From: Clostridia bacterium
GTDB lineage: Bacteria > Bacillota_A > Clostridia > Oscillospirales > CAG-272
Assembly: GCA_017529175.1 (NCBI GenBank)
Contig: JAFXNX010000156.1
Span: 1 to 11,509, forward strand
Length of the DNA stretch: 11,509 nucleotides
Reading direction: 5' to 3'
Every line of letters begins with the position of its first letter. Within the stretch, counting starts at the first letter, position 1. Positions 2,203 through 11,509 of this stretch are shown piece by piece. The position numbers and the translations under genes were made by a program. The notes under the pieces are model-generated. The model was not told where the DNA came from. It searched no databases and saw only the letters and a list, made by a program, of their open reading frames with translations.

Positions 2203-2475
2203 TTATATATGTCTCTCTTCCCTCAAACGGTCATACTTGATTTTTGTGGCAATACCGCCTCTTATATGTCTTTCGCTCTTATTCTTTTCAAGTATATCCG
2301 ACGCCGCTTCGTACAGCGGACGGTCAATACTCTTCAACCGTTCGCGAAGATCTTTATGTACGGTCGATTTACTGATACCGAAATGCTTTGCTGTCTCTCT
2401 TACGGTTGATCCGTGTTCCGTCAGATACTCTGCCAGCGCTCGGCATCTTTCATCAGCGGATAAATAATCCCTCAT
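2203..2475 (-). CDS. spoIIID: Sporulation transcriptional regulator SpoIIID
   Basis: A 90-residue DNA-binding protein of the mother cell during sporulation. SpoIIID activates and represses genes of the sigma-E regulon and helps turn on sigma-K synthesis. The match is strong along its length: an N-terminal MRDY, a helix-turn-helix with TVRETAKHFGISKSTVHKDL at about 24-43, and a basic C-terminal part with the conserved RHIRGGIATKIKY at about 69-81. The C-terminal basic helix is known to add DNA contacts in the family. The length is normal. The start ATG has GAGGTGAGG just upstream. The gene lies about 80 bp after the SDR gene and about 80 bp before coaX, with its own sigma-E-like promoter inside an inverted repeat. 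It shows that the organism belongs to an endospore-forming lineage. Confidence 0.96.
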   Translation of the reverse strand: MRDYLSADERCRALAEYLTEHGSTVRETAKHFGISKSTVHKDLRERLKSIDRPLYEAASDILEKNKSERHIRGGIATKIKYDRLREERHI

Positions 2476-2479
2476 ATCC

Positions 2480-2523
2480 TCACCTCAACATATAAAATAC
2501 TGTCGTATTATATGTTGAGGTGA
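2480..2523 (-). repeat. Long inverted repeat covering the spoIIID -10 region and RBS
   Basis: TCACCTCAACATATAA (2480-2495) and TTATATGTTGAGGTGA (2508-2523) are perfect 16-bp complements. In RNA the helix can be extended by AATAC/GTATT (2496-2500 with 2505-2509) with a small bulge, closing on the 4-nt loop TGTC. The arm nearest the gene holds most of the spoIIID ribosome binding site (GAGGTGAGG, 2478-2486). The far arm holds the predicted sigma-E -10 box. It could be an RBS-locking hairpin in read-through RNA, a DNA operator, or both. Confidence 0.75.
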
Positions 2524-2535
2524 AGTTTTATATGA
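2507..2535 (-). promoter_or_regulatory. Sigma-E-like promoter of spoIIID
   Basis: On the minus strand TCATATA (2529-2535) is separated by 14 bp from CATATAAT (2507-2514). This resembles the sigma-E pattern of an ATA-rich -35 and a CATA-type -10 at that spacing, and spoIIID is a sigma-E target in Bacillus. The start of transcription would be near 2500, inside the loop of the inverted repeat. The call is by eye from the consensus in an AT-rich gap. Confidence 0.5.
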
Positions 2536-2557: not shown

Positions 2558-3586
2558 TTATTTTAGCATTACCTGTCCGCCTGTTACGGGAACTGCCTGA
2601 CCTGTTTCGTACTTCTGGTCGATGATATATGAGATCGCAAGACATACGTCTTCGGTCCTGCATCCTCTTCCGAGCGGGACTTTCGCTTCATAAAAGCGTC
2701 TGACGTCGTCGACGGTAGTCGCTCCGGGTACTTTTCCCGCTTTGAGGTACTGAACGAAGAGTCCCTTTTCGGGATCCGACCACAGCGGACCGTCAAGGAA
2801 ATTACCGGGACAGATCGCATTAACTTTGATACCGAAAGGCGCAAGTTCGAGAGCAAATGACTGCGTAAGTCCGATACCTCCGAATTTACTTCCGGCATAA
2901 GCGAAATTCTTGTTGCTTCCTTCAAGACCGGATTTTGAGTTGATCTCGATAATATCAAACATTATATCTTTATTCACTTCTCTTTGAAGCTTCATTATGA
3001 GAGATGCGTATTTCGCGCAAAGGAAATATGCGTTATAATTGACGTTTTCGACAAGTGTGAACGCGCGAAGCGTCATTTCTTCAAGACTTCCCGCGCGTAC
3101 GATCCCCGCGTTGTTTACGAATACGTCAAGACCGCCGAAACGAAGTACGGTCGCTTCCACAAGCGCTTCAACAGACTCTTCTTTTGTAACGTCGCAGAAT
3201 ACAGCGAGCGTCTCGACACCGTTCTTTTTGCATATTGCCTCCGCAGCGCCTCTCGCGCCGTCGGCGTTCATATCCGCTATGACGACAGACGCTCCGCGGG
3301 ATGCGAGATAATCGGCAATTCCGTAGCCGAATCCCTGCGCGCTTCCCGTGACGATCGCGATCTTCCCCGTTAGCGCTCTGTCTCCGGTTACCGGCGTCAC
3401 TTCAAACGCACCGGCTCCCTTAACGCATATTTTTTTAAATGTGAGACCTTTCAGAGTCTGAAGGTCCTCTTCCGCTATCGTTATCGCGCTGTCGTCAGTA
3501 TTCGGTGTGTATCTTACAGTCACCTTACCGTCGCCGTCTCCGTATAAAAATCTGAGTTTCGGCGCTATTGTCGCGGCATTTTTCAT
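2558..3586 (-). CDS. SDR-family dehydrogenase, sorbitol-6-phosphate dehydrogenase-like
   Basis: A classical short-chain dehydrogenase/reductase that oxidises or reduces a hydroxyl/keto group with NAD(H). The Rossmann glycine motif TGSAQGFGYGIA is at 80-91, Asp105 after the second strand favours NAD over NADP, NNAG is at 148-151, and the catalytic set is Ser217, Tyr230 and Lys234. The part around PGNFLDGPLW (260-269) and the C-terminal TGGQVM resemble sugar-alcohol-phosphate dehydrogenases and the SDR half of bifunctional rhamnulose-phosphate aldolases. The true substrate is not determined. The first 70 or so residues precede the Rossmann fold and are unlike the catalytic core, so the chain is about 80 residues longer than a typical SDR. 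The start is supported by GGGGAG upstream. It lies 31 bp after the PHP gene and is probably cotranscribed. Confidence 0.8.
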   Translation of the reverse strand: MKNAATIAPKLRFLYGDGDGKVTVRYTPNTDDSAITIAEEDLQTLKGLTFKKICVKGAGAFEVTPVTGDRALTGKIAIVTGSAQGFGYGIADYLASRGASVVIADMNADGARGAAEAICKKNGVETLAVFCDVTKEESVEALVEATVLRFGGLDVFVNNAGIVRAGSLEEMTLRAFTLVENVNYNAYFLCAKYASLIMKLQREVNKDIMFDIIEINSKSGLEGSNKNFAYAGSKFGGIGLTQSFALELAPFGIKVNAICPGNFLDGPLWSDPEKGLFVQYLKAGKVPGATTVDDVRRFYEAKVPLGRGCRTEDVCLAISYIIDQKYETGQAVPVTGGQVMLK

Positions 3587-9477: not shown

Positions 9478-11509
9478 TCAGTTATCCGCCGGAAGTTTAT
9501 CTATATTACTCGTCAGGTAGCGGCGAAGATACAGAACGTCCGAATAATCAATACTGTCGCTTCCGTCGACGTCCGCTCTGTTATAGTCAAGATCGCTGTC
9601 ACTTACAAGCGACGAGAGAAACTTTCTGATAAGCAGAATATCTTTTGTATTTACTTTGCCGTCGCGGTTCGCGTCGCCGAAGAATGCGGTTTGGCTGACA
9701 ATTGAAACAGTCCCCGCGTCTGTTGCTGGATATACGTTTTGCCCGGAACGCTTCACGTCGCCTGAATTGTACGTAACGTCGACCGGGATATTTCCGGCGG
9801 GTGTATTATTTGCGGTGAACCTGCACAGAACAGTAAGCTCTGACGGCACGCTTCCCGCAAGAGACAGCGTTATTTTATCCGATGATACGGAGAAGCTTGA
9901 AAAGCTTGTCCCGAGCGGCGAGACTGAGATAAGCGCGAGCTTACTGTGATCGTACTCAAGATAAAACACTGCGCTCGTTCCGCCCGAAAAGTTCTTGAGC
10001 GTGACCGGAAGCGTGAACGTTTTGCCCGCCGGTATCTCACAATCGGAGACACAGATCAGCGGACCGGTCCCGTTATAATGAGGAATGGAAAGTTCCGTAT
10101 ACGAATAACCGCACACTGAACATATTTTCACGATAGAACCGTCTGTATCGACCTTAGGACGGGAAAACACCGTATTGTACGTGTGAGCTTTGATCGGTAT
10201 CTCAACTGTTATGAATTCTCCGCAAGACGTGTCTTTACAGTATACTCTTTTTGATCCCGCGGCGGTACAGGTCGCGTCAGTAATTATCTGTTCCGCGCCG
10301 GTAAAATCATGAACGTGAGGGCTGAGGACAGTAAATGAAACAGTATCGCCCGTAGTCGTATAGCCGTTAATTCCCGAAAGATACGAATTGATCGAGTCAA
10401 CTCTTGCGCTGTAGCTCCCCGCGGGGAGTATCACGCTGTATTCAGTGGTGGAAAGAGATGTTGAGACGACTGTCGTGTTATTTGACTTGTTGATGATCGT
10501 CAGCTCATATCCATCGCAGTTTGCGGCGTCGTTCCATGTAATACTCGTCGTCTCTCCGCCGAGACCGGGCGTCACGACGGGCGTGGCTTTACCGGGAGCG
10601 GCGGTGGGGACAAGAGACCAAACCTGACTTGCAGATGCGCTGTTGTACGTTGTTACGTTTACGAGCGTCTTTGAGTCCTTTGTATAAAGGTCCATAACGC
10701 ACGAAGGAGCTTGAACGCACCTTATGATATATCCTTCGGCAGTTGCGTCAAAGTACCATTCCTGGGAGGCGTCGCCGGTCGGCTCGTAAAGAGTCACTCT
10801 CTTTCCGCTCTGAACTATCGTTGCATAGACGTTGGCGACGTGGCTCGTAGTGTACTTCGGTTTTAGTACGTAGCCGTATGTCTGTTTTTTTACGTTGATC
10901 TTGAAATAATTATTTGCTTCGAGAGACGCAACGCCGAGATCGGTACCGTTGCTTTGCTGCTTTGACGGGACAGTAAGATATTTACCCGTGCTGTTGTTTC
11001 TGATGTAATAATCGCCCTCGGTTATCGTTGCATAAACGACCTCACCGCCGCTTGAGCCGTATTTCGTCCAGTATGTCCCTCGCGACAGGTTTCCGCGTCT
11101 TTCGTGAAGCGACGAAACGCCGCGCTCAAAATACTTTGACCAGTTATATCCGGCGTCATATGCGCCGTCCGCGGTGTTGGGTATACCGAGTATCTTTGTA
11201 TACGCGTACTTTTCGCTGTTATTGAGTTCGTATACAAGATACGACATCTGCCCGTTAACGGTGGTATAGTCAAGTCCGTTCGACGCGCAGTAATCTTTCA
11301 GCGAATCTATCCTTCCGGCGTGCCACTGACAAAGACCGTAACTCGGCAGACCGTCGACGTCGATCCCGTACGCTGTCGGGATAAAACGCGATTCTTCATA
11401 AATATTTGCAAGAACGCCGCAGGCTTGAGCAGCGTTGAAATGGAGCGTGTTTGTCAGAAAATCATATATGAGGGTCTCATTTGACGCAGCGTATACTTCG
11501 GGTATGTAC
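9478..11509 (-). CDS. Secreted lysozyme-lectin-cohesin-dockerin protein (partial, N-terminus outside window)
   Basis: The frame is open to the window edge, giving 676 residues; the first in-window Met (at 11247) is internal to a domain, so the true start lies beyond. Modules in order, in fragment numbering: a phage-tail-type lysozyme domain (about 10-150) with EES at 38-40, the probable catalytic Glu, and YGLCQWH at 57-63; a ricin-type beta-trefoil (about 165-301) with QEW and QVW; an Fn3-like domain (about 310-395); a segment with paired Cys (about 398-476); a cohesin domain (about 482-605); and a type I dockerin (about 610-672). The dockerin's first calcium loop is canonical (DANRDGKVNTKD); the second is DVDGSDSIDYSD. 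The first in-window residues (IPEVYAA) look like the end of a signal peptide. The protein is predicted to be exported, cleave peptidoglycan, bind glycans and join a cohesin-dockerin complex. It could act on its own wall or on other bacteria. Confidence 0.85.
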   Translation of the reverse strand, partial: YIPEVYAASNETLIYDFLTNTLHFNAAQACGVLANIYEESRFIPTAYGIDVDGLPSYGLCQWHAGRIDSLKDYCASNGLDYTTVNGQMSYLVYELNNSEKYAYTKILGIPNTADGAYDAGYNWSKYFERGVSSLHERRGNLSRGTYWTKYGSSGGEVVYATITEGDYYIRNNSTGKYLTVPSKQQSNGTDLGVASLEANNYFKINVKKQTYGYVLKPKYTTSHVANVYATIVQSGKRVTLYEPTGDASQEWYFDATAEGYIIRCVQAPSCVMDLYTKDSKTLVNVTTYNSASASQVWSLVPTAAPGKATPVVTPGLGGETTSITWNDAANCDGYELTIINKSNNTTVVSTSLSTTEYSVILPAGSYSARVDSINSYLSGINGYTTTGDTVSFTVLSPHVHDFTGAEQIITDATCTAAGSKRVYCKDTSCGEFITVEIPIKAHTYNTVFSRPKVDTDGSIVKICSVCGYSYTELSIPHYNGTGPLICVSDCEIPAGKTFTLPVTLKNFSGGTSAVFYLEYDHSKLALISVSPLGTSFSSFSVSSDKITLSLAGSVPSELTVLCRFTANNTPAGNIPVDVTYNSGDVKRSGQNVYPATDAGTVSIVSQTAFFGDANRDGKVNTKDILLIRKFLSSLVSDSDLDYNRADVDGSDSIDYSDVLYLRRYLTSNIDKLPADN

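Follow-up and report, generated by a model that had tools for sequence, protein, structure and literature searches.

Control of translation by the point at which a transcript begins is known from phage and mobile genes. At phage T4 gene e, the ribosome-binding site (RBS) is hidden in a long RNA, while a short RNA whose 5' end lies within the repeat is translated; in the fold-back inhibition of the IS10/Tn10 transposase, the 5' arm of an impinging transcript hides the RBS, and RNA from the element's own promoter lacks that arm. Here we analyse an inverted repeat upstream of the sporulation gene spoIIID in an 11,509-nt stretch of a Clostridia bacterium genome (assembly GCA_017529175.1, contig JAFXNX010000156.1; the whole stretch is hereafter the window). 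Sequence comparison makes it likely that the hairpin encoded by this repeat is a selected read-through lock and a new case of the type proposed for sigG of Bacillus subtilis. The locus shares the long- and short-RNA logic of T4 gene e and the arm logic of IS10, although the former is a phage gene under an early/late switch and the latter a mobile element with a terminal repeat.

The closest precedent comes from sporulation itself. A read-through hairpin with the same logic has been proposed for B. subtilis sigG (spoIIIG), according to the accessible text of PMC5942855, and it stands nearer than T4 gene e, the analogy drawn in a preliminary description of the window. The two sporulation loci have the logic and the developmental programme in common but not the gene, the sigma factor or the bacterial class; in the present case complementarity additionally extends over many genomes, its letters vary and it depends on gene order. 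The principle of the read-through lock has thus already been proposed for B. subtilis sigG, and what is new is the spoIIID case and its breadth. Translational control upstream of the spoIIID start is likewise shared with B. subtilis, in which usd is required for spoIIID translation (Decatur 1997, via the accessible part of PMC4474612). There, an upstream gene behind a sigma-E promoter is needed, whereas here a leader of about 26 nt is predicted, open in the folding model, and the blocking arm is not part of it. No description of such a lock at spoIIID or spoIVA was found by title or abstract start among open-licence papers. Within their accessible portions, PMC3395874 contains nothing on this kind of lock, PMC517825 mentions read-through into spoIIIA only, and the MraW/cmpA stem-loops of PMC13317604 were rejected as another mechanism.

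A predicted hairpin over the spoIIID promoter and ribosome-binding site

The spoIIID gene of the window (2203-2475, minus strand, ATG at 2475-2473) encodes a 90-aa protein matching TIGR02844 (E 4.4e-29; 100.6 bits, under the cut-off of 111.5). Upstream of it, after a gap of 82 nt, lies a co-directional short-chain dehydrogenase (SDR) gene (2558-3586, minus strand), whose product is sorbitol-6-phosphate dehydrogenase-like (best NCBIfam hit NF009050, E 8.1e-70, below its cut-off) and which is presumed to be the source of read-through RNA into spoIIID. As previously described, the minus strand has no listed terminator-like site in the interval from the SDR stop (2558) to spoIIID. Within the gap is a perfect inverted repeat of 16 bp, TCACCTCAACATATAA (2523-2508) against TTATATGTTGAGGTGA (2495-2480) on the minus strand, which the preliminary description had pointed out and which we find in the sequence. 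It is the longest of the six inverted repeats listed in the window within 60 nt, and the repeat search lengthened it to 31 nt with 77% of positions complementary. A reading of this repeat as a terminator was rejected, given that no U tract follows the stem and no site is listed on the minus strand. No Rfam family matched the window at gathering score.

The proximal arm (2480-2495, minus strand) contains GAGGTGA of the spoIIID RBS, and the distal, anti-RBS arm (2508-2523, minus strand) lies upstream of a predicted transcription start, so that the two arms fall on the RBS/start side and outside the predicted own-promoter RNA, respectively. This start derives from a promoter matrix built from 89 of 210 spoIIID loci, the window included, with the consensus kTnATAa, 15 nt, CATATANT, GTAnCAA and with transcription probably beginning some 13 nt downstream of the C in CATA. 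Both elements of the window's promoter fit the matrix: the -35 element TCATAT (2530-2535, minus strand) and, 15 nt downstream and within the distal arm, the -10 element CATATAAT (2507-2514, minus strand), whose sigma-E-like character had been proposed. The promoter scores 15.2, against a median of 13.1 over the 210 loci. On the basis of the B. subtilis consensus, we take it to be a sigma-E promoter; SigE promoters are also treated in a 2020 start-site paper on C. difficile (PMC7438776, accessible part). The predicted start is A2501, give or take a few nucleotides, in the hairpin loop (2501-2504, minus strand), in agreement with the earlier proposal of a start near 2500. The resulting leader (2501-2476) comprises 26 nt and, given this start, has no small open reading frame (ORF) of the usd type between the sigma-E promoter and spoIIID. 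By eye, a 3-codon frame, ATG TTG AGG TGA, can be seen within it at 2491-2480 (minus strand), overlapping the spoIIID RBS; it has no evident RBS of its own and is probably incidental.

The minimum-free-energy fold of the read-through RNA is a hairpin of 27 pairs (2472-2535, minus strand) that covers the RBS and the AUG. It pairs 2535-2530 with 2472-2477, 2525-2509 with 2478-2494 and 2508-2505 with 2497-2500, the start codon being paired and the -35 element matching AUAUGA around it. The predicted helix is hence larger than the repeat first described and takes in the -35 element as well. Folding was stronger than in shuffled sequences for both the 121-nt RNA (z -6.2) and the 58-nt element (z -9.5), a level that none of 200 shuffles reached for either, whereas RNAs starting at 2505 or 2503 were not significantly better folded than their shuffles (z -0.9 and -1.2; 37/200 and 25/200 as good). 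The mean unpaired probability of the Shine-Dalgarno sequence and start codon was 0.006 in the read-through RNA, 0.61 in the predicted-start RNA and 0.30 with a shuffled spacer. In silico, the own-promoter RNA would therefore lack the hairpin, and the claim that read-through RNA hides the RBS while the short RNA leaves it open is borne out by the folding model.

Under the proposed mechanism, RNA reading through from the upstream gene would carry the promoter in RNA form, and the spacer and -10 element, together in the window with the -35 element, would form a duplex over the RBS and the start codon, leaving ribosomes unable to start. RNA made by sigma-E polymerase would begin in the hairpin loop without the distal arm, exposing the RBS, and SpoIIID would thus be made solely from mother-cell sporulation transcripts. 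We infer from sequence the start site, the occurrence of read-through RNA in growing cells and the translational block.

Complementarity between promoter and ribosome-binding site in relatives

Absence of the inverted repeat from close relatives had been named beforehand as an outcome that would refute the lock. Homology searches returned 3,730 spoIIID homologues (E<=0.001), and the 210 loci analysed comprise the window, 134 loci from a family search, one from a genus search and 74 non-duplicates of the best 80 among 589 confirmed loci. The family search covered 246 genomes of one family, 182 of them with a match, and the 134 loci used are among the matches listed. Promoters were located in all 210 loci with a caller based on the matrix, which replaced a crude first -10 caller that had dropped 17 loci by score or distance; complementarity plays no part in either the start caller or the promoter caller.

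The letters of the arms are not conserved, and it is their complementarity that has been kept. Among the 27 genomes compared, the nearest (G189, G148 and G103) show 80, 75 and 69% identity in a neighbouring radical-SAM protein. In each of them the promoter flank pairs, by eye, with its own RBS/start region in other letters (GAGCATCATAT/ATATGATGCTC in G189, GCATCATAT/ATATGATGC in G148 and CTTTCATATAAT/ATTATATGAAAG in G103). In these three genomes the flank pairs with another part of the RBS/start region than in the window; the window, G189 and G148 were also compared by alignment.

To quantify this pattern, duplex energies were computed between each promoter (the 20 nt preceding the -10 element plus the 10 nt counted from its first base) and its own RBS/start region (-20 to +6). 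Own pairs averaged -12.42 kcal/mol, against -9.16 kcal/mol for pairs swapped between the 210 loci (z -17.9; 0/5000 permutations); an earlier version of this swap test on 193 of the loci had given z -15.7. In a second test, in which dinucleotide shuffling was confined to the 20-nt flank on the 5' side of the -10 element, the excess persisted over the 210 loci (mean -2.39, t -10.0), with 49 loci at p<=0.05 where 10.5 were expected, and also when computed by 130 sequence clusters (mean -1.94, t -7.6). A predicted lock with a co-directional upstream gene is present, for example, in the cultured bacterium Kineothrix sp. MSJ-39 (L033, p 0.005). The same test was null on 260 general genes (+0.06, t 0.5). 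A promoter-free version yielded a comparable outcome on 209 of the 210 loci (mean -2.73, t -9.4; general genes t -0.9). The pairing hence appears to be under selection and kept despite letter change, and these results constitute sequence-based evidence that this type of lock is widespread in the Clostridia.

Dependence on gene order and promoter position, and alternative explanations

A first classification of gene context took ORFs overlapping the promoter for divergent genes; such ORFs were excluded on reclassification. With a co-directional gene less than 100 nt upstream and no terminator, as in the window, 23 of 50 loci were significant (mean -4.63). The remaining classes gave 24 of 156 together: 5/24 for co-directional genes without a terminator at 100 nt or more, 4/31 for co-directional genes with a terminator and 15/101 for divergent genes. 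Two of four loci with too little sequence for classification were also significant. The difference between the near co-directional class and the other three was supported both by loci (P 2.6e-5) and by clusters (P 0.0024). Under the first classification, predicted accessibility followed the same line: in the near co-directional class (55 loci) its median was 0.23 in read-through RNA, 0.50 in sigma-E RNA and 0.33 with a shuffled spacer (read-through against shuffled, P 3e-7), and read-through and shuffled-spacer values were no different in the other two context classes (P 0.6 and 0.11).

The position of the excess is also informative, since a lock specific to read-through requires it over the spacer and -10 element, whereas an ordinary leader hairpin would place it in the leader. 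Profiles were computed for the 161 loci with a promoter score of at least 8, of which 40 belong to the near co-directional class of the first classification. The excess peaked at -10 to +3 of the -10 element (mean -2.56, 49/161 significant; near co-directional class -5.31, 24/40). Windows from -60 to -19 showed none (t +0.3 to -1.0), and over all loci the leader windows from +6, +10 and +13 were not significant (t -1.4, -0.3 and -1.5; n 98, 56 and 37). On the RBS side, the positions paired most often in the 49 significant loci were -10 to -8. On this view, selection would preserve pairing between the drifting arms, with greatest strength at loci that have a co-directional neighbour ending a short way upstream and no terminator in between.

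Several observations weigh against interpreting the hairpin as a selected read-through lock. The shorter RNA was more open than the longer one in every context class, so that the arm is isolated solely by the comparison with shuffled spacers. Only 49 of the 210 loci were singly significant; they include G189 (L084) but neither of the other two nearest genomes, G148 (L090) and G103 (L082). Strict compensatory pairs in two small close clusters were few (1/15 and 0/12) and in neither case above shuffles, and the upstream-region control of the earlier swap version showed a small excess (z -2.7). The near class reached t -2.0 in the +6 leader window (n 17, none singly significant), and an earlier profile, obtained with the crude caller and a swap control without composition correction, had shown a leader excess from +10 to +22 (t -3.7 to -2.3; n 84 to 42). 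A weaker excess persists at divergent loci (n=101, mean -1.61, t -6.6); adjacent-gene read-through does not account for it, barring misread upstream genes or an effect of transcription from farther away. Strong anti-RBS arms were also seen at L016, L047 and L176, where the adjacent upstream ORF is seemingly divergent under the first classification. Lastly, promoters, start codons and upstream genes were all called by simple scripts. The weight of support for a read-through lock rests on the 210-locus set as a whole, on the location of the excess over the spacer and -10 element and on its strength where read-through is expected.

Among alternative explanations, the one that fares best, though improbable, is a coupling device: the hairpin would be melted by ribosomes completing the upstream gene, which would allow translation of spoIIID from the long RNA. 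The requirement for usd upstream of B. subtilis spoIIID (PMC4474612, accessible part) offers a parallel, and the upstream stop falls inside the arm or at most 15 nt from it at 14 of the 26 significant loci that have a co-directional gene and no terminator (first classification). It is more than 15 nt away in the other 12, however, and in the window the SDR stop precedes the hairpin arm by 22-23 nt. Furthermore, the position of the arm is set relative to the promoter and not at one distance from the stop, and the window's predicted sigma-E leader is too short for a usd-like gene.

It is somewhat less probable still that the element works as a DNA palindrome, bound by a dimeric repressor at the sigma-E promoter. 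A 16-bp palindrome across a -10 element has typical operator geometry, and two other palindromes of the window, near coaX, look operator-like. A protein site would nonetheless be expected to keep its letters, whereas both the letters and the register of the arm vary between neighbouring genomes while complementarity stays, and its partner is the RBS/start region and not the gene interior, for which the control of the earlier swap version gave z -1.3. Just as little credence is given to RNase III-type processing, by which the long helix would be cut and the lock would destroy the RNA rather than hide its RBS. In principle 27 pairs are long enough for this, but several significant relatives have helices of about 8-13 pairs, expected to be poor substrates, in which the RBS is still covered. 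Composition or chance, whereby pyrimidine-rich spacers would match purine-rich RBSs, is largely refuted: pyrimidines are mildly enriched in the spacer immediately before the -10 element, and the swap test gives an excess for general genes too (z -3.3 to -6.1), but the excess at spoIIID outlasts dinucleotide shuffling of the spacer, under which general genes turn null.

Other sporulation genes, neighbouring features and implications

Similar complementarity was detected at other sporulation genes. For spoIVA (30 loci of the same family, L222-L251), both the promoter-free test (t -6.1, 12 significant) and the promoter-anchored shuffle test (t -4.3; L237, L248 and L249 are examples) revealed an excess, in a set that retains some gene calls that look wrong (e.g. 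L236 and L246). For sigG of that family (L282-L311), the promoter-free test on the 27 of 30 loci that passed the RBS filter gave t -4.0, with six significant (L297 and L304 among the examples); sigG was analysed without a promoter model, and the arm is therefore not placed relative to the start site. The excess at spoIIIAA was weak (n=30, t -2.2). Among spoIID-like genes (the first 23 of 30 loci) there was none (t -0.4), in a set that is not a clean control, most matches being low-scoring paralogues.

In the window, spoIIID is followed on the minus strand by coaX (2132-1347) and a gene for an energy-coupling factor (ECF)-type transporter (1206-613). The gene scan covered ten ORFs, with overlapping plus-strand ORFs left out, and all ten lie on the minus strand. 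Two mutually related palindromes, ATTATACAAAAT-N4-ATTTTGTATAAT (2146-2173, before coaX) and AATTATACAAAACT-N13-AGTTTTGTATAATT (1301-1341, in the gap separating coaX from the ECF transporter gene), resemble operators at which a single regulator of pantothenate/vitamin genes would act. In a 589-aa ORF (9478-11247, minus strand), residues 511-585 match the end of the CelK cellobiosidase model (positions 817-889; E 5e-6, far below cut-off), which suggests a dockerin-like C-terminus. A hairpin at 57-81, AGCGGGTCGCGC...GCGACCCGCT, was called terminator-like on both strands and is likely a bidirectional terminator.

Taken more broadly, and with a degree of confidence lower than for the spoIIID lock itself, we lean towards regarding early sporulation promoters of the Clostridia (those of spoIIID, spoIVA and perhaps sigG) as two-layer devices, in which the spacer and -10 element bind the sporulation polymerase in DNA form and, once transcribed, serve as cis-antisense RNA against the RBS of the same gene. 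The complementarity would be rebuilt with new letters wherever gene order sets the gene downstream of a vegetative operon, providing a general, terminator-free insulation against read-through. If true, this would explain how sporulation genes within vegetative operons stay silent without terminators, and would turn one proposed case, that of B. subtilis sigG, into a testable rule whereby the anti-RBS arm is predictable from gene order. Long RNA-seq transcripts across sporulation genes, by the same token, need not mean protein.
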